A stretch of 64,000 nt of DNA from Hyaloraphidium curvatum (lineage: Eukaryota; Monoblepharomycota; Hyaloraphidiomycetes; Hyaloraphidiales; Hyaloraphidiaceae): contig JAIVFI010000007.1 in the NCBI GenBank assembly GCA_025558095.1, positions 496,001 through 560,000 of the forward strand, written 5' to 3'. A program made the translations under genes and the position numbers. Shown here piece after piece: positions 3,001-44,309 of this stretch. The stretch's first letter is position 1. Every line of letters begins with the position of its first letter. A model generated the notes under the pieces. That model was not told the origin of the DNA. It searched no databases and saw only the letters and a list, made by a program, of their open reading frames with translations.

Positions 3001-6000
3001 GGCCTTCGCCAGCGTTCTGAGAAACCAAATCGAGCTGGTGACCGCCGAAGTGGTGGATCAGCTGCTCGTTCTCGTTGGCAAGCTCCCCAACTTGCCCACA
3101 GAGGCTGTGCTCGCGAACACAATGGCGTACCGCTTCTTGTTCCTCGACTTTGAGCTGTGGCGGAAGGCCAGCCGCGACATTCAGAAGCTGATTCTGAACC
3201 AGTTCCAGGACTTCACCGTCGGGAGTCGGAAGCGCGTCTTCAATGCGCGGAGGCTTGGGAAGCTATTCCTGACCAAGCGGCTCCTCATGGCTCTCCGGAC
3301 GGAGGTGTTTACGCAGAGCCTATTGCGGGACGTGGTGCACGTCATTAAGTCCTCGTTGATTGCTTCGTTCAACGTGGACTCGGTGCGGGCCATTGCGACC
3401 TTCATCATGTCGACGCTGCCTCAGAACTCGGCCTCGGATGCTGCGGCGGCGCCGCCCCCGGACGAATGGGGCGGACAGCGCCAGCGCAATGCTACGATGA
3501 CCCCCACGCTCGGAGTTCCGGGCACGGACTGGAACCGGCGCAATCGTGCCGCATCGATCGCAACCGTGTCGGGTGGAACGGGCGGGCCCGGATCCCCCGC
3601 CCGTTCTGGTTACCTTGCTGTGGAACCGCGGACACGTCGCGCGACAGGCGTTCCCGGTCCCGGGGAATGGGATGCGGGGGACTTCTTGTCGTCGAAAAGG
3701 GCTCGCATGCCCTCCACGCTCAACATAACTACGGAATCAACGCGGTCCGCATCGAGATCGGAATGGTACAACGCGGGAGCCCAGCTTCCCTCGCTTGTCG
3801 CCAATGCCGAAACGGAGGAGACCCGCTTCAGTATGCCGCAGGTCGTCACCGAGGTCAGAAACCTGCTGCTGGAGTGCCTGGTCGATATCGTCTGCCGAGA
3901 GCCGGGCAACAACCCGTACGCGGAGCACTTTGTGCAGATGATCACGGCCCGCTGGGTGCTGCTTTTCATGGAGGGCAAGATCAATTCCCACACCGTTGTT
4001 CTGGGCACCCGGCTCATGGCCAAGCTCCTGACGAGTCAGGGTTCCGCCTTCGTCGAGAGGTTCCGCTCGTCTTCGCAAGGCTTCGTCATCATGGCCAACC
4101 TCCTGCCGCGCCATTGGAACCTTCTCGAGGTGCACATAAGCATGCTGGCGCTCGCGTTCGGGGTGGACCAGAGCGAGATCCGCCCGCGGCTGCCCTTTGA
4201 CCTTTCGACTCTGGCCAGCCTTCTTAAGCCGGATGCCACCCGGGCCGCTGTTATGGTTCCCGAGGGTCTCACGCTCGCTTTGACCATGCTGAAGGAGATG
4301 GTCTACGTGATGTCGCGCCAGCGAAGCTACGCGAACGCAAGATTCGGCGGCTGGTCTGGAGCCGGGAGCGACGTTGATGCCGATGAGAGGATGCCCGTCA
4401 TGCGGGACTACTGCCAGCTCGTGAACATTTACTGCCAGCTCTTCGAGAGGCTTTACTCTGCCTCCAACGACGCGAAGGCGCTCCTCGCGTCCGCTGATGT
4501 AGTCGAGCAGCTGTTGCTCATCATCTTCCCTGTGATCTGCGATGCGGCACCAATTCCTGCTGAGGCCGAGATGGAGGACATGGAGTTCGACGGCGACCAC
4601 GGCGCGGCTGCCTCGAGGCGCCAGAACACGCTGGCCATCCCTGTTTCTTCCGCTCCTGCGATCGCGAGTCGTTGGCAAGATGCAGCGGGCCTCGGCGTGG
4701 ACGATGGCAGCAGGCAAAGGACGGTCACCATACCGACCGCATGGCAATCGGGTCCTACAGCCGCTCTCCACGATGATCAGCCGCAAGTCAACGAGGAGCA
4801 GCCTGCGTTTGTTCCCGTCGATCCTCTGAATGCTCAGAGCGACGATCTCGCCGTCGAGGCACATGCAAGCATGCACTCGAACTTGCCGACCGAAGAACCG
4901 CTCCTGCGGGGATCTTCCTCGGAGATGGAAGCCGTCGGGAAAGGGGCATCCGTGGAGACTCTGACCAGGTCTGCGGTCGATCGGCTCTGCGACTTCGTGA
5001 TCTATCTCTGCGTCGAATCCGTCATCGGCGATTACAAGCCGCTATCGGCGCTCGAGAACGTAATGAAAGGCAGCCCGCCTTCCACCCCGGCCGACCAGAA
5101 GCGCTTCAGGGCGTTCCTGCTGGCAAAGATCCTCCAGAAACTGCAGGGCATCATCGCTTCGTCGAGGAACTTGGTGCTCGACACCCGGGTTCAGAGCAGT
5201 CTGAACAAGCTCGCGAGCTATGTCGTGGACAAGCTGTTCCAAGGCTGGTTCAACGATCACGCGGAGCTGGCTTTCGATGTGTTCAGCGCGGTTTTGGAGA
5301 TCATTGAAGCGGACTCGAGGGGCAGCAAGACGGACTCGAACGTGCAGGGTCTGTTCCGGTCTCTGAACAAGGCGATCATGTTCCAGCTCAACGAGTACAA
5401 GAGCGACAAGGACAAGCTGCTGTCCCTGACCAGGAAATGCGCGTACCACCAGAAGATCATCTTCAGCTCGCAGAATGGCGACTCGGAGTTCTACAAGTGT
5501 CTCATCAGCAGGATGTGGAAGATGGTCGCTGGCTCGGACATCGAGCTCAGGAACGAGGCGATCAGCGTGGGTGTTCTTCCGGCAGGGCGCGGTGTGAAGC
5601 GGAGTTGACGGGCCGTCCTAAGCTTTGGAAGCTGCTTCTGCTCCAAAAGCCGGCTGAAATGGCCTCCGTGCTCAAGGCGAAGGGGAAGAGCAATGAGTAC
5701 GCGACTTTCGTCGAAGGCTTTTCCAAGCTCCTTGAGATGGTCAGTTGAGGCACGTCCGCGACCCAGCCTGACAGGTGGACTGACGTCCTATCCTAGGATT
5801 CTCGCCCGTTCTTGGCGTGGATTGCGGACCGGAAAGGCGATCTGGGCACCGTATTCCACGATGCCGTCGACACCGTGTGGGAGAGCTTCCTGGTCGCCGA
5901 GGTCAAGAACGCCATGGAGCTGGACAAGATCTCTGCGAGCAAACGCCTTGCCCGGCTAAAGCGCATCAGCAAACGATCGAGCTCAGAAAAGGCGACGTTA

Positions 6001-9000
6001 GCAAAGTACAACAGCCGGACGGAAATCTGGCTGAAGGATGTGCAGGAGAACGAGTACCTCCGGTACCGCAGGTTTGCGCAGGACGCGCTGGACACGCAGT
6101 CGTTCGTGATGGACGAATGGTCAACCACCTCTGGAGAGATTACCAGGGAATGGAGCCTGTGGGATCCGGCTCTGTATGCCTACGAAACGCCGATGGTCAC
6201 CTGGCAGCTGGACCTTGTCGAAGGGCCCCAACGGATGCGGAGAAAGCTGCGGCGCTCGCGCCAGGCTTCGGACCTGGAGGTGATGCAGATGGATATGGCA
6301 AAGAGGGTGGCCAGCCCTTCTCCTTTGGAACAGGCTTCCCGCCGGTCCGGCGGTTCCGGCAGGCTGCTTGCCGGACCGCAATCGTCGGCTGCCTTGGATT
6401 TGCTGGCTGATGAGGGCAAACTGGGTGGCGATGCCGGCGCAGAGGACGACCTGAAGCAGGAGGAAGCCGCCGCTGACCTTGTTGCCGGGAACACTTCTGC
6501 CGAAGGTGCGGAAGGCGAGGTCGACGATGACGATGAGGAGGACGGTTCCTTGATGGACGAGGACAAGAACCGAAAGGTTGCGCGTTTGCTGGAGGCGGGC
6601 GACACTGTCTTGGAATCGTACAATGCGGCGCGCGTCATGGGCTTGGACATTTGCGAGGGACTCCTTCTCGTTTGCAAGCAGAACATCTACCTCATCGACA
6701 ACTACACGCGCCGCTCCGACGGCGAGCTCGACGACATCGACAACGTACCGATCGATGAGCGAAACCCCTACAATGTCATACTGTCGTACAGCGCAACCCC
6801 TCGCGTGCCGGGACGTTCCCGGCACACGTGCCGCAAGTGGGCTTACGACAACATCAAGGAGGTGCACAGGCGGAAGTTCCTGTTCCGGAATGTCGGCCTC
6901 GAGATCTTCCTCCTCGACGGCCGGAGCTTCCTGGTCACTCTGGAACCGGCCGATCGGGACATTGTATACAACAAGCTCATGTCAAGGGCTTCTGTCGCGG
7001 CGGCAAACAGGACGGACTCGCTGGGCTCTGCGGACGACTGGTCCGTGGGAAGCAAGCTGACCAACATCTTCTTCGCCGCGTCGTCGCTGGCCGAGCTGAC
7101 TACCAAATGGGAGAAGTGGGAAATCAGCAACTTCGAGTACCTCATGAGACTCAATACCCTCGCCGGACGCTCCTACAACGACCTGACCCAGTTTCCCGTC
7201 TTTCCATGGGTCATTGCCGACTACGCGAGCGAGTCGCTGGACTTGTCTCTCCGTTCATCGTTCCGCGATCTCTCGAAGCCCATGGGCGCACAGACCGAGG
7301 AACGGGCCGCTGAGTTCGAGGACAGGTTCCGCAGCTGGGAGGATCCCGACGGCCGGCCGGCGTTCCACTACGGCACCCACTATTCGTCGTCCATGATCGT
7401 GTGCTCTTTCCTCATCCGCTTGGAACCTTTCACCCAGCTTTTCCTGAAGCTCCAGGGAGGTCACCTTGACCACGCGGACCGGCTTTTCCATTCCATCCAT
7501 CACGCGTGGCTGTCGGCGTCCAAGCTCAATACGACCGACGTGCGGGAGCTGATGCCCGAGTTCTACTGCAATCCCGAGTTCCTCAAGAATTCGAATCGCT
7601 ACGACTTCGGCGTCCGACAGAGCGGTGAACAGATCGACGACGTCGTGCTGCCGCCCTGGGCCAAGGGCGATCCGCGCTTCTTCGTCTTCAAGCTTCGTCA
7701 GGCGCTCGAGAGCACCTACGTGTCTCAACACCTGCACGAATGGATCGACCTAATCTTCGGCTACAAGCAGCAGGGCCAGGACGCCGTCATGGGTCTGAAC
7801 GTCTTCCACCACTTGTCGTACGAAGGGGCCGTGGACATGGACGCTATCCTCGATCCGGTGGAAAAGCAGGCTACGATCGGCATAATCCATAACTTTGGCC
7901 AGACTCCGCGGCAGCTGTTCAAGAAGCCGCATCCGCCGCGACTCATATTCCCTCCCGTGGTGTTTTACAAGCTCGCCAAGCAGCCGCAGCTCTTGTTCCC
8001 GGCGCAGAAGGTTGTGCTGAAGACGGAACAGCCAGTCAAGTCCTTGGCGATCTTGAACGACAAGGTGGTCGCTTTCGGCCCCGGGCGGGCGAAAGTGCCG
8101 AATCCTCCGGGGCAGGCGGCCATAGGCACTCGGTACCTGGAGTGGGGCTACGTCGATGGAAGCGCTCGCATTTACCAGATGGAGACCGACCGCCTGGTTG
8201 GCGTCTTTGAGGGGCTTCACACCGGACAACTGACGTGCGCCCAGTTCGCGGACGACAAGACGTTGGTCATCGGAGGGGCGGACACGGTGAGCACACGACG
8301 TTGTTTCGATGCACCGTTGGCTCATTCAGCTTCAGGTTGTCACGGTCTGGCGCGTTCGGCAATCGAAACAAGTCGAGCTCACTCTGTTGTATGTGATGCG
8401 CGGTCATCGCTCTGCCATCGCCTGTGTGGCGGTGTCCAGGCCGTACAATCTGATCGTCACGGGGGCTATTGAGGTTGGTGGCTCGCTGCGGGATCCTGTG
8501 GCTCAATCGCAGGGCTCAACCATTCTGCCTTAGGACTGCTTTGCGCTGGTCTGGGATCTCAACCGTCTGACCTATGTGCGGCATCTTCAGCATCCGGAGC
8601 CAATTACCTTGGCTATCGTCAACGACACCACCGTAAGGAGCCCGGTTTGGCGCACATTTTTGTTACATTTTCTGAATCGATTTCATAGGGCGACATTGCG
8701 CTGTGTTCGGACCTTAACATCAGCGTCTACACCGTTAATGGAGAACTTCTCGCGGCCCGCGAGGTTGCCGTGCTTTCTGCGGACGCCCTACAGTCGTGTG
8801 TCTTCTTCACCGGAGACGGATGGGCGGACGCGGACCTGATTGTGACTGGCCATCGATCCGGCGTTTTGAAGGTGAACGGTGTTGTCGTCCGGACTCGGCG
8901 CGATACTTACAATCCTTGGACGCGCTTGACAGCTGTGGAAGATGAATCTGGCAGGTCCTAGGAAGTCGGAAGAAGGTTAGTCAATGCATTGGGCAAGTCC

Positions 9001-25778: not shown

Positions 25779-26357
25779 TTCTCGGATGGGGGACGCGGGG
25801 CACGGCGAAGTGGAGGCCAACAAAGGTTTGATCTCTCGGCGTTCCATAATAGTGGAACCCCCCGCGCTCGCTGCGCCTGGCCGTGCGTCGCCCGGAGCCC
25901 TTTCGGGGGCGATGATGCCGCTTAGCCAATTCCGAGTCATCCCTGACGAGAAATCTCCGCTCGGGCGGCGGAGAGGACGGCCGGCTGCGCGGCGCGGGAA
26001 GGCTGTGAAGACATCTGTGCTGGGCCGAGCCGGACCGCTCGAGACGCGTGCTCGCGGGGGCGATGAGGCCGAGTTTTCAATCGGAGCCGCAGGCGGGGAA
26101 AACGGGCAGCGAATGAAGGGCGGGTGCGGAGACCCCGACCCAAAGTCCACTGCGGCAAAAGCACCTTCGAAGGCTCTCCGAGGGATCAGGAAACGTCGCA
26201 TGCAGATCAGACGCATCTACTCGGGTATCCACGGGCGGTCTACAGGGTATTGTACAAGGCGACTCCCACCCCCGACTCCCCGGCTCTACGTTCGGTGCAG
26301 ACAAAGACAAGGCATCGCAGGAAATCGGCTTTGCATCGCGTGCGCAACAGCGTCCGT
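25779..26357. other. Intergenic region, cyclin 3' side / TFIIIC promoter
   Basis: 579 bp with no supportable gene. It holds the 3' flank of the cyclin gene and the upstream region of the TFIIIC gene (both minus strand). A CCAAT pentamer lies at 25926-25930, about 150 bp upstream of the TFIIIC start. The open frames that cross this stretch have no recognisable protein content. Confidence 0.5.
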
Positions 26358-35029: not shown

Positions 35030-37168
35030 TCACGGCGACTTCGGCGCGACCGTTTGGAGTACCTGGCCCGTCGGCGTCGCTGTTGTGCCCGTCTTCAGCT
35101 CGTCGAGCCACTTCATGATATCCTGAGCGCCTTTTTCCACGATCCCGTTGATGTCGACCCCGGCGGCGACGGGATCCCAGTCCTCGGCGAGGATCGCTCC
35201 ATCTGCAGCAAAATCGACGGCCGCCGGCGAGTACTGGAGGTTGGCCGTGCACTTCCTCCTCCCCTTCATCCGGTCCCGGTTGTGCGCGCACAGCCGGAGC
35301 TTCGAGATCAGCTCGTCTGCCAGCGACTCGATCTCGGCTCCACTAAAGTGAACTCCGTCGGGGGCCCTGTGCAGCCGGGCGAGGAAGCGCTGGTGCGAAT
35401 TCAGCAGCAGGAAGCTGCTCCGGTTGTGCGGGGCCGGGTCGAACGGCGGGAGGGGGCCCAGGTTCTCCAGCGCTTTCTCGTCGATTCCCGGCGGGCAACG
35501 GCCTCCGGTCGCCACGACGTACTGAGTCCAGAGCGACCACAGCTGCATCCTGTCTGGCAATCGCCAATCGGCAATGGGATGCAGGCGCATGGAACCTGCG
35601 ACGCTAATGGGCTGCACGTCCGCGTAGAAGATGCGCAGCGGGCCCAACCGATCGATCTCCTTGCGCGCGGGCCGGTTCCGGTCGCGCGACCACCGGTTCT
35701 GCACGTCGACGGCCCTGCGCGCGGTCCGGACCAGGGAAAGCAAGGCATGCAGGTAGAAAAGGTGCGTCCAGTGCCCGTGGTGCGCAGTAGACGCGGCCGG
35801 CCAGTGTCCGAACCCGGCCACGACGGTGTCAAAGAACGTGTACGAGGTCCACAGCCGCCCGAAGCGGTCCGACTCGGGGCCCGAGGAATTGGCAACGGCG
35901 TAGGGTATCGCGAGGGTGTCGTTGGTCAGCCTCCTGGCCGCAAAAGCCATACGCGAAAGCATATCGTCTATCCAGAGATCGGCGCGGACCGTGCCGACCA
36001 GCTCGGTCTTGTCCAGGCGGTACTGTCTGTACGGCGTGTTGAGCACAAAGCCCCGGCCAAAAGGGTCGATGCGGGTCTTGAACGCCTCGTACATAGTGCG
36101 GAGCTGGGAATCGCCTTCGAAGAGCAGGGACTGGGAGACGGCGTTGGATTTGCGGCCCTTCTCGGGTCCTGTGGGCGCATCCGAGCACCGCTTGGGGCAG
36201 AACCTCGTGGTTCGTCCGGTCCGGTCCCTCCGGAAATCCACATGGCGATGGCTGCACGAATAGGGCACGAACACCGCGTCGCGGACGAGATCGGCATGGA
36301 CCCTTTCCACCGCCTCGTCCGATTCGACGCGGAGCCACGTCCCCACCAAGGGGCCGGAAACGTCGGCGCAGTCCGGCGCCGCGGCGGGGGCCGCGAGGTG
36401 CGGGTTGAACGCCGGGTGCCGCAGCTGCGGGCACACCTCGACGCGGTGGCCGCTCACGAGGGAAACGTTCTGGACGTCCGGATGGTGGTCGTACTGGTCC
36501 CGCAGGCCGTCGTGCTTCCGATTCCGCCAGGTCAGCGAAAGCTCGAACTGTCCGGCCGCCAGCAGGTGAAAGTGCAGCTCGGACCTGCACTTTCGCGGCG
36601 ATTCCCAATCCGACGTGCCCGAGTCCAGCTCCGGATGACGGTAGTTCCGCGCGCCCGACGCGGTCGTCCATGGCCATGAGGTTAGCTCGTCGGCCAAATC
36701 GCCCCAGATCGATCGGAGCTTTGTGGGCGACGGCAACAGAGCGTAAAGCTCCGGTCCCTCCAACAACGCGGTCAAGGTATCGGGAGCAAATCGATCTCGC
36801 AGGTATTTGTCCGTCGTGCTGCTGAGCGCACTGGTGTTTGTCTCCGTGGTGCACGCTGCGGCGTCTGTCCGTTGGATCCGAACCACGCCGCGGAAGCAAT
36901 TGTCCGTGGCGAAGCACAGCTGCACCGCGAAGCCCCCCGCGGCGGGTACGTCCGTGCAGCTCAGCTGTCCGGTGCCCAACGAGCTTGGCTGCCCGGTTGC
37001 CGCGGAGCCACCCAATGAGAGGTAATCGGGGTCCGCGATCGGGTCCAGCGGGAAGCCAAAGCCGAGCTGGTCCGGGTCCTCCAACTCCTCCGGTTCTATG
37101 CTCAACATGACCAGCAGCATCGCAGCCAGGAGGAGACCGGCAAACAGGCGCCATCTCGTGGTGCTCAT
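35030..37168 (-). CDS. Type II membrane protein with GDS/DxxH acyl-esterase domain (PC-esterase-like)
   Basis: Intronless, 712 residues. A short cytosolic N-terminus and one signal-anchor helix (LFAGLLLAAMLLVMLSI) predict a Golgi or cell-surface luminal enzyme. The middle has a beta-rich region with Cys pairs, then FEGDSQLRTMYEAF, the GDS nucleophile block of the PC-esterase/TBL/Cas1p group, and near the C-terminus APDGVHFSG, which fits the DxxH motif of the same catalytic triad. The family O-acetylates or de-acetylates glycans and other polymers; substrate here unknown. The overall layout resembles NXPE-type proteins. Its lack of introns contrasts with most neighbours. It is divergent from the DXO gene with 224 bp between starts. 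Confidence 0.7.
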   Translation of the reverse strand: MSTTRWRLFAGLLLAAMLLVMLSIEPEELEDPDQLGFGFPLDPIADPDYLSLGGSAATGQPSSLGTGQLSCTDVPAAGGFAVQLCFATDNCFRGVVRIQRTDAAACTTETNTSALSSTTDKYLRDRFAPDTLTALLEGPELYALLPSPTKLRSIWGDLADELTSWPWTTASGARNYRHPELDSGTSDWESPRKCRSELHFHLLAAGQFELSLTWRNRKHDGLRDQYDHHPDVQNVSLVSGHRVEVCPQLRHPAFNPHLAAPAAAPDCADVSGPLVGTWLRVESDEAVERVHADLVRDAVFVPYSCSHRHVDFRRDRTGRTTRFCPKRCSDAPTGPEKGRKSNAVSQSLLFEGDSQLRTMYEAFKTRIDPFGRGFVLNTPYRQYRLDKTELVGTVRADLWIDDMLSRMAFAARRLTNDTLAIPYAVANSSGPESDRFGRLWTSYTFFDTVVAGFGHWPAASTAHHGHWTHLFYLHALLSLVRTARRAVDVQNRWSRDRNRPARKEIDRLGPLRIFYADVQPISVAGSMRLHPIADWRLPDRMQLWSLWTQYVVATGGRCPPGIDEKALENLGPLPPFDPAPHNRSSFLLLNSHQRFLARLHRAPDGVHFSGAEIESLADELISKLRLCAHNRDRMKGRRKCTANLQYSPAAVDFAADGAILAEDWDPVAAGVDINGIVEKGAQDIMKWLDELKTGTTATPTGQVLQTVAPKSP

Positions 37169-37392
37169 GCCCGAAACGGGCGACTACAGGGTGCGGCCCG
37201 TGGCGGGCCGCCAGCCGAGCGGTCGAGCCGGGGCCGGCGCGGGCTGAACCAAATGGGCCCAGCGCTTCGCAATGAAGCCGAGAGCGGCGGGGACCTCCAG
37301 TGGGCAGGGCGGCGGGGCGGTGATGATGCGGGGATTCTCGTCCCCTTGTCGTCCCCGACCTGTCCCCGACCCTTCGCGCCCACCCGTACGCG

Positions 37393-40336: not shown

Positions 40337-43300
40337 TCACCTGCCCTGCTGAACGAGCCGCCCCAATGCCGCGAGCAGATCCTGCTGCCGCGCGGGCTTG
40401 GGAACAAAGTCGTTCATGCCGCTTTCCTGAGCACGCACCCGATCCCCGGCAAAGGCGTTGCCTGACAGCGCGCAGATGTAGATCGCATCGCCGGCGAGCT
40501 CGCGGATGCGCCTCGTCGCTTCGAACCCGTCCATCTCGGGCATCTGGAGGTCCATGAAGATGACCTCGTACTGCCTCCCGTCGTCCGCGGCACTCTGCAC
40601 CCTTTCGATCGCCTGGAATCCGTCGTTGGCAAAATCGTACTTCTGGTGCAAGCGCTGGAGCAGTTTGCCCGTCACTCTTTGGTTGATCAGGTTGTCCTCC
40701 ACCACGAGAACCCTGAAGACGGGCAGCTTGACGGGCCCGAGTTTCGTGTCCACAAAGATCTCGGCCGCGGCCGCAGGCCGTTTTGCGGGTTTCGAGGGGG
40801 ATGGCGTTTGACGGTCGGGTCCGGGCGCCGGCGACTCGAGCACCGTCGTCGCAGACAGGTTATGCGCCAGGGAAAAGTAGTCGCGCGGCTCCACGGCAGA
40901 CGCCCTCGGCGACGAGAGAGCTTCTAGTCCTGCCTGAGGAGTCCCAATGCCCGAAGGAGTTGTCAGGATGGTTGGCAGCGAGCTGTCCGAGGAGTCACCG
41001 ATCTCTTCCAACGACACGTCCGCCACGCGGGTCAGGCCACTCGTATCGGTAGTCGATGTTCGGAGGGGAGTCGCAGGCGACTTGACTGCTTCGACTTGGG
41101 CAGTGCCACCACCGGCATCCGTTGCCTCGAAAAAGACAGGCTTTGCACGCAGAACGTCGCGGACGTCCGCGACAGACAATGTGTCGTTCGGCAGCTCGTT
41201 GATGAAGCGCACGACCGCCGACATCTTGGCCGGTCGCAGGAGAACGGTCACCTCGTGCGCCTTGGTCAGGCGAAGCGACTTCCTGAACGTTTTGTGCGAC
41301 CCCGGTCCGCACAGGAGCAAACATCGTTTGGATAGTCCGCTCCTCAGAATGCACTTGAGAGCGCTGACCTCGTGCATGCATGTCCTGAAGTCCATCACGA
41401 GGGCCGAGACCGACTTGTCGGTCAGAAGGAAATCTCCCAGACTAGAGCATTCGATGATTGCAGCCGAATCCACCCCAAGCGCCTGCAACAGGTATCGCAG
41501 CGCGTCTCTGTTCAGGGGCCTATTGTCCACGATGGCGAACGAAATCGAGGACGGCGATCTCGAAAGCTCCAAAGGCTCCTGAACGGAGTCGGCCAGTTTT
41601 GCCTTGCCGGGAGAAAGGCGGTCGAGAAAGACCCGAAAGCAGAATGTTGCGCCCCGGTTCTCGAGCCGCGACAGGACCTCAAGGTCCTCTTCATGCATGC
41701 CCGCGCCATCCGAAAGCCACACGTCGCCACCCATTAGTGTCGTAAGCTTCTTTACGATGTTGAGGCCGAGCCCGGTGCCGCCGAAACGTCTCGTAATGCT
41801 CTCGTCCAGCTGTGCAAACTGCTTGAACAGCTTCTCCTTGTGCTCGTGCGAGACGCCAACGCCCGTGTCGCGGACAGCGCCCTCCACCAAGATACGCGTA
41901 GGGTCGTCTGCCGGGACACTCGTTCGCAGGATCAACACGACGTCGCCTTCCAGAGGCGTGAATTTGATCGCATTGTTGAGGAGCTGTGAATGACAATTAA
42001 ACGAAATTCACGGCAAGTAAAGGACCGGAGACTCACGTTGACCAAGATCTGCCGAAACCGCGTGACATCTCCGGCCGCCACTCGCGTCTCCGGCTCCTCG
42101 AACAGATACGCTGCGAATCTAAGTCAACAAAGGGAGACCAGGCCGAGCGAGAACCCCACCATTGATCTGCGGGCCGTCCTTGGAAGCCGCCGTGGACACG
42201 ATCTCGATTGCCAGATCCATGGCTTCCCGGATCGCAAATGGCCGCTTCTCCAACGCCAGCGAGCTCGACTCGTACTTGGAGAAATCCAGAATGTTCGACA
42301 CGATCTGCAACAGAAGGTCGCCGCTTTGCTTGATGATTGTGACAAGCTCCTGCGCCTCGGCGAACTCTGCGTCATCTTCGTTCTCCGCATTGGCAAAGAA
42401 GCCATCGAGCAGGATCCCGGAAAGAGCGGTGACGGCATACAGCGGTGCTTGCAGCAACCCGATCAGACGACCTTTGAAGTTTTGCTCTGCAAATGCACTT
42501 ACTTCTCAGCTCGTGAGAAACGATCGTGAGGAAGTTGCGATGCTCCGCCGCCACCTCGATCTCCTTCCGCGCCGCCAACAGCAATTCGTTTTGTTGCTTC
42601 AGATTTTCCATCTAAAGAAGCATGTCAAACGTCGTCCAGCATTGTCAACCAACCTGACGTACCCGAAGCCGATCGACTTCGATTGCGTTGGCTGCAACGG
42701 AAGGTAAGAACAATGATGAACGCAATTCGAGCTCGTCACCTTGATTCAGGGCGATACCGATTTGCTCCGCAGTGTCGGTGACCAGGCTCGCGGCAAACTC
42801 CACCCTCTCGGGCAGATTGTCCTTGTCCGGTCCCGGATCCTGAATGTGCAGGACAAGAAGGCCCCATTCCGACGCATCCATACGATCGTTCGAGGTCTTC
42901 GATGTGCTCTCCCCCACTGTCGCGTTCTGATCCGCACCAGGCGTACCTGCCGGAGTCGTTCCCGGTGACCCAGAGGTCGCGAACCCAGCATCGGAGGCCG
43001 TCGGAAGGGGGAAGCGAATCATGATGACAGCCCCGATATCATCCATGGGCCCGAGGCGATGTCGGACCCGCTGGTGCGGATGTTCGTGTCCGATCTCCAC
43101 AGCAGTGAAGATCTCGCGCATGGCCTCCGAATCGCGATCCGTGAATAAGGTGATGCATTTCGACGTCTCCAAGGCGACGGCGATTGGAGCGACCCGCGTG
43201 TCCAGATCGTGGAAAGGCAGCTTCTCCACGCCATTCGAATACTCAGCGAAGAGAGACATTTTTGTTTCCTGGAAGCTCGGAAGATAGATGAGGCAACGCC

Positions 43301-44309
43301 CTCCGTACCGGCCCTCCGGCTGGGCCATCCATGGAGAATCGCCGTCCGGTCCATACTGGTCCGCGTCCAAGTACTCTTCCAGCAAGCGGGCACTCGCATC
43401 CAACGGGTTTTCGGCAGCGTCTGGAGAGCCGGGCGCAGCGAATACAGAACCGTCCTCGCCCAGCTCCGAAGGAGGTTTGGAAAACAGGTCTCGCTTCAAG
43501 AGAGCCCTTCCAATCTCCCTCGCAGAGATCCGCAGAATCGCGGCCCGCGCGAGCGTTCTGCGAATCTTGATGATGATGTGGCGGAGCAGTACGAGAGAAT
43601 CGCTCTGGTACCGAAGCGATCGTTCCGACAAATGCTTCTTTGCCAGTTCGTTCTCCAACCTGTCGTGCGAGCACTGTGAGGAAGAGATGCGACTGCAACG
43701 GATCATGACCTACGCCTGAATGAATCTGGGAATCATGACGGCCTTTGGGGCCAGGCGAATAAGCACGTACGCGGTGTAAAGGCTCACAATGCTCGTCAAG
43801 ATCTTCGAGACGTTGAGGAGAACGAACGTCCAGTGATAGAACGGTACGAAGGCGCCGATGAAATGGGTCGTGCCGCAGAGGAGGATGAACTGAACGGTGG
43901 CAGATCAGAGGCGCGACGGTAGGTAACGCGTGTAGAAGGAACTCACGGCGACGAAGAGATGCACCACAGACTCCACCGGCAGGTGGGTCTGCGCTTGCTT
44001 CATGAACCAGAACATGCTCAGCGGGATGCTGAAGTAGGCCAGGGCGATGCCAAAGTCTGTAGTGAAGGAGCAAGGTTGAAGCGTAGTCGGCGCGGACGGA
44101 AGACCACGGCTCTCACCACTGACGGCGCTCACGACCTTCCCCGCACCGCTCATGGGCAGGCACGGCTGTGATGTGCCACCATAGAATGATGAGTCCCGTA
44201 CGGGTGGAGGGGCCGGGGCCTCGTTTCGGGCGACAATGGCAGCGCCCCCCACGGAGGTTGCACCAGCGACGCACAGAGCCGCAAGCGCCAGATGGCCCCA
44301 GCGCTTCAT
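40337..44309 (-). CDS. Ethylene-receptor-like hybrid histidine kinase
   Basis: 1,184-residue membrane sensor kinase. Exons: 44309-44117, 44056-43947, 43889-43714, 43659-42740, 42691-42654, 42611-42503, 42447-42160, 42110-42037, 41983-40337; introns 42-60 nt. A hydrophobic N-terminal segment (1-26) precedes a three-helix sensor matching plant ETR1: SDFGIALAYFSIPL, FILLCGTTHFIGAF and KILTSIVSLYTAYVL. Asp65, Tyr72, Ile103, Cys106 and His110 fall at the spacing of the ETR1 copper/ethylene-binding residues. Next come a coiled linker, a GAF domain (about 190-460), DHp with phospho-acceptor His512 (SHELRTPLYAV), HATPase (LLNNAIKFT, DTGVGV, GGTGLGL), a degenerate receiver (783-890) and a C-terminal receiver with Asp1114 (FMDLQMPEMDG) and FVPKP. 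Catalytic residues are intact. ATG 44309 is the only sensible start. Ethylene binding is inferred from residues, not shown. Confidence 0.92.

Follow-up and report, generated by a model that had tools for sequence, protein, structure and literature searches.

A predicted ethylene-receptor-type hybrid histidine kinase in the genome of an early-diverging fungus

The analyzed window, a stretch of 64,000 nucleotides, belongs to an 890-kb contig; the genome as a whole comprises 31.9 Mb in 55 contigs. The window contains a gene on the minus strand which lies in conserved surroundings, flanked by genes for ZPR1 and an NF-Y/Dr1-type histone-fold protein. The gene model was rebuilt independently from the raw sequence and consists of nine exons encoding 1184 amino acids, with the ATG at position 44309 and a stop codon ending at position 40337 (Table 1). 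All eight introns are of the GT-AG type with lengths of 42–60 nt, and their removal leaves a single frame of 1184 codons. This model agrees with a preliminary description of the locus, according to which the joined exons encode a full plant-like ethylene sensor. Removal of intron 1 restores a Ser64-Asp65 pair at the start of membrane helix 1. The first position is Ser in 76 of 82 relatives and the second is Asp in 81 of 82 (bacterial counts at the positions of ETR1 C65 and D25 are partly biased, because the patterns of the genome scan described below include these positions). Thus, the junction of exons 1 and 2 is supported by the recreation of a conserved residue pair. The GC and GC3 contents of the gene are at or slightly under the range of the neighboring genes.

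Table 1. Position and content of the receptor gene and its exons in the window.
Feature	Position	Strand	Basis
Whole gene, ethylene-receptor-type hybrid histidine kinase (predicted)	40337..44309	-	spliced model, Pfam
Exon 1: start codon, hydrophobic residues 8-26, lumenal/extracytoplasmic stretch with Cys50	44117..44309	-	
Exon 2: membrane helix 1, D65, Y72, I75, P76	43947..44056	-	model, Pfam
Exon 3: helix 2 with I103, C106, H110; helix 3 with K130; start of coiled-coil linker	43714..43889	-	model, Pfam
Exon 4: linker and divergent GAF-like region, two low-complexity inserts	42740..43659	-	ETR1 alignment; Pfam negative
Exon 5: signalling helix, after GAF-like region	42654..42691	-	spliced model
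Exon 6: signalling helix, DHp start, H-box SHELRT, phospho-acceptor His512	42503..42611	-	model, Pfam
Exon 7: remaining DHp	42160..42447	-	model, Pfam
Exon 8: HATPase_c start	42037..42110	-	model, Pfam
Exon 9: HATPase N, G1, G2 boxes; REC-like ~782-902; Ser/Pro-rich linker; receiver 1061-1176	40337..41983	-	model, Pfam

The membrane region was compared with the profile of the ethylene-binding domain (EBD), a check proposed in the preliminary description. The Pfam profile ETR1_N (PF25487) matched residues 60–152 with 80.1 bits at a cut-off of 27 (E = 1.5e-22). This match covers all three membrane helices which had been postulated before. Hydropathy analysis marked an N-terminal segment and helices 1 and 2; helix 3 stayed under the threshold of 1.6 but aligns to ETR1. 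All seven ethylene-binding positions of ETR1, which we take to be D25, Y32, I35, P36, I62, C65 and H69, are present as D65, Y72, I75, P76, I103, C106 and H110, and the five of them named previously (D65, Y72, I103, C106 and H110) occupy the same ETR1 register in the rebuilt model. In addition, K130 is the helix-3 lysine matching ETR1 K91. Ethylene binding in ETR1 requires seven residues, and roles have been given for C65, D25, H69 and K91 (PMC11819568). When produced in yeast, the EBD of an Azospirillum receptor that has these seven residues as well binds ethylene (PMC11819568). Judged by this residue conservation, the receptor likely binds copper and ethylene. N-terminal to the EBD, residues 8–26 are hydrophobic, which suggests either a fourth helix, as known from plant subfamily 2, or a signal peptide.

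In the region that connects the membrane part with the kinase, Pfam matched no GAF domain, even at E = 10. An alignment of linker, GAF region and coil with the ETR1 sequence (entered by hand) beat 500 of 500 shuffles; for the GAF core alone, compared with the same hand-entered sequence, the real score was exceeded by 21 of 500 shuffles. AlphaFold run without an alignment gave pLDDT values of 35–37 for exon 4 and the HATPase/REC-like part, which are too low for use. The GAF domain of the preliminary description is only weakly recognizable. A GAF domain is likely present, mainly on account of position and flanking helices, though it is not established.

Pfam assigned HisKA to residues 504–576, HATPase_c to 625–755 and Response_reg to 1061–1176. 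His512 and the N, G1 and G2 boxes are intact, as had been claimed before for the kinase. When residues 1–533 were searched against PDB sequences, the DHp domain came out closest to an ethylene response sensor 1 structure (4mt8). The C-terminal receiver is likewise complete (E1065, D1066, D1114, S1143 and K1165). The assumption that all receivers are intact held for this domain but not for residues ~782–902, where a first receiver would be expected. This stretch gave no Pfam match, was weakly similar (z of 3.7 as the best value in shuffle tests) to the corresponding first receiver in a cyanobacterial relative and, as read from the sequence, lacks the second residue of the acidic pair, the Thr/Ser and the Lys. 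It appears to be a degenerate REC-like stretch, which leaves the C-terminal receiver as the only certain one. The degenerate stretch, the hardly detectable GAF core and the prediction of splicing from sequence could indicate a broken or mis-modelled gene and the absence of a functional receptor. We regard this as very improbable, since eight clean GT-AG introns give one uninterrupted frame, the motifs of EBD, HisKA, HATPase and C-terminal receiver are intact and the coding composition is like that of the neighbors.

The protein was further compared with known receptors. It shares with Arabidopsis ETR1 and with ETR2/EIN4/ERS2 the seven binding residues, the helix-3 Lys, the linker/coiled-coil and the layout of a hybrid kinase ending in a receiver; the identity of the EBD to the Arabidopsis receptors is ~37–40%, calculated with plant sequences entered by hand. 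Plant subfamily 2 receptors combine an extra N-terminal helix with a degenerate kinase. The present protein has a subfamily-2-like N-terminal hydrophobic segment, but its HisKA/HATPase is of the active, subfamily-1-like type with intact motifs. Compared with ETR1 it carries the additional degenerate REC-like stretch and is longer (1184 versus 738 residues). Cyanobacterial SynEtr1-like kinases also combine an EBD with a kinase. In contrast to the present gene they are intronless, and many contain PAS or HisKA_2. The Acaryochloris kinase, which gave the best match to the kinase core among those compared, has the architecture EBD-HisKA-HATPase-REC-REC-HPt with tandem receivers and a fused HPt, and without GAF.

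In fungi, ethylene receptors have been reported for Blastocladiomycota, Chytridiomycota, Rozella, Glomeromycotina and Entomophthoromycotina, and none in Dikarya (Herivaux et al. 2017, PMC5285503). This agrees with the statement in the preliminary description that Dikarya lack the sensor while some early-diverging fungi carry it. The homologs described there include Catenaria CaHHK1/2, Allomyces AMAG_07095 and others, Gonapodya GpHHK2, Spizellomyces SPPG_07928, Rozella RaHHK2 and Rhizophagus RiHHK6; the fungal receptors carry the crucial residues, and both subfamilies are represented (PMC5285503). Like these homologs, the present protein joins an ETR-type three-helix EBD with binding residues to a fungal hybrid histidine kinase, and it comes from the same region of the fungal tree. 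Unlike them, as far as a comparison by description allows, its true receiver is preceded by a degenerate REC-like stretch, and its GAF-like part contains large inserts. Agaricus bisporus AbETR1 and AbETR2 are hybrid kinases whose membrane region was reported to bind ethylene in yeast; according to that report, only two of the three residues regarded as essential are present, and the cysteine lies in helix 3 (PMC9603746). The present protein, in contrast, has a complete canonical site.

A scan of prokaryote genomes revealed 229 confirmed EBD-encoding stretches, of which 80 were kept, mainly from cyanobacteria and Bacteroidota. Bacterial EBDs occur in many phyla and in varying architectures (PAS, GAF, HisKA, HisKA_2, REC, HPt), and the identity of the window EBD to cyanobacterial and other bacterial EBDs is 35–48%. 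No EBD relatives were found on viral contigs. A tree of the kind proposed in the preliminary description was calculated from the EBDs of the window, the plant receptors and the 80 bacterial loci. The window sequence grouped with the plant receptors with a support of 91/70, both on long branches (1.57 for the window). The tree program flags possible long-branch attraction, so that the plant grouping is not reliable and the origin may be cyanobacterial or plant. The kinase core matched the Acaryochloris EBD kinase best, with 38% by BLAST and 40% over the tree columns, which is only slightly above the host's own kinases (35%), and the kinase tree indicated no clear donor.

Compared with related domains, the EBD has one inserted residue following helix 2 and has lost a commonly conserved Trp. 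Together with the long branch, these changes suggest that its ligand affinity may differ. The branch length and the local changes after helix 2 would also fit a protein that now senses another cue, such as copper itself, the redox state, or a gas or small olefin different from ethylene, as would the wide distribution of EBDs across bacterial phyla; to our knowledge, most bacteria with EBDs lack tests for ethylene responses. Nevertheless, all seven binding residues have been kept despite the long branch, which indicates selection on the same site. A cue other than ethylene is therefore considered unlikely.

The nature of the host was deduced from its genome. Several genes for PF03142 chitin synthases are present (best match 609 bits). 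The mitochondrial Lon encoded in the window reached 469 bits with structure 7sxo, which we take to be yeast Pim1, and 382 bits with the next mitochondrial Lon, presumably the human one. A selenocysteine tRNA was detected with 78 bits at a cut-off of 47, by ARAGORN as tRNA-SeC with the anticodon TCA, and also with Rfam (contig 14 locus, 1501–1586). A thioredoxin reductase gene on the minus strand (~5550–6340 of the contig 15 locus 691500–698000) ends with SGC-TGA-GGA-TAA (GCUG-stop), and its product fits solved high-Mr thioredoxin reductase sequences well above glutathione reductases. A SECIS element was not found with Rfam. Based on these genes, the host probably makes selenoproteins, which by 2019 were known from only nine early-branching fungal species. 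Because of the chitin synthases, the fungal-like Lon, the tRNA-Sec and the UGA-ending thioredoxin reductase, the host is assigned to the early-diverging fungi. The tRNA-Sec and the UGA-ending gene rule out an affiliation of the genome with Dikarya. Searches for the flagellar radial-spoke and IFT46 families, run without a positive control, gave no match in the genome. As a mere conjecture, the host could be related to the monoblepharids, for instance to Hyaloraphidium, which has no flagella.

Near the thioredoxin reductase gene, a microbial-type rhodopsin is encoded, a type known from fungi and algae (Bac_rhodopsin, 97 bits; minus strand, ~3840–4700 of the same contig 15 locus). A placement in the Blastocladiomycota was considered and rejected: the opsin is present, but the rhodopsin-cyclase signature was not found, as no guanylate-cyclase ORF was noticed in the 6.5-kb locus of the opsin. 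The PDB relatives of the opsin include proteins which, from their entry names, we take to be algal. Together with the high GC content this might point to a contaminating algal or plant contig as the source of the receptor gene. Such an origin is extremely improbable in view of the chitin synthases in the same assembly, the preference of the window's Lon for 7sxo, the introns of 42–60 nt and a composition matching that of the neighbors.

The receptor gene is the sole ETR1_N locus found in the genome, and no paralogue was detected. HisKA gave ~30 matches, which is very many for a fungus, and HPt gave one. Thus, a phosphorelay partner exists in the genome. Overall, the product of the gene in this early-diverging, non-Dikarya fungus is quite probably a hybrid histidine kinase of the ethylene-receptor type. 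From its parts and their residues we infer the following relay. C106 and H110 would hold one copper(I) in the three-helix membrane domain, and ethylene would bind to this copper. The signal would pass from helix 3 with K130 via the coiled coil and the divergent GAF-like module to the kinase, which would phosphorylate His512 and then Asp1114 of the receiver. From there, the phosphate could be handed to the HPt protein of the genome and onward to soluble response regulators. A more specific reading is rather doubtful and is put forward tentatively, namely that a selenocysteine-using, possibly non-flagellated fungus senses algal, plant or cyanobacterial ethylene with a single receptor in which a subfamily-2-like N-terminus is joined to a functional kinase and to a gate receiver that is degenerate.

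In 2017, it was suggested that the ethylene receptors found in early-diverging fungi aided fungi in their encounters with plants and algae (PMC5285503). Since the host itself belongs to the fungi in which such receptors have already been described, the gene is less surprising; it is a good further example of the receptors reported in 2017 for several early-branching fungi. It adds to the receptor family a member with an intact kinase and an extra N-terminal hydrophobic segment. The publications consulted contain no biochemical test of an early-diverging fungal ethylene receptor. Due to its complete canonical site and its single copy, with no paralogues to mask a loss, the gene is a clean candidate for a biochemical or deletion test.

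Elsewhere in the window, an ORF on the minus strand (35030–37183) resembles genes for esterases or acyltransferases anchored in the membrane, and its product contains an EGDSQLR motif. Between positions 26000 and 28000, the GC content peaks at 74% with a strong GC skew, compared with 57–70% in the remainder of the window.
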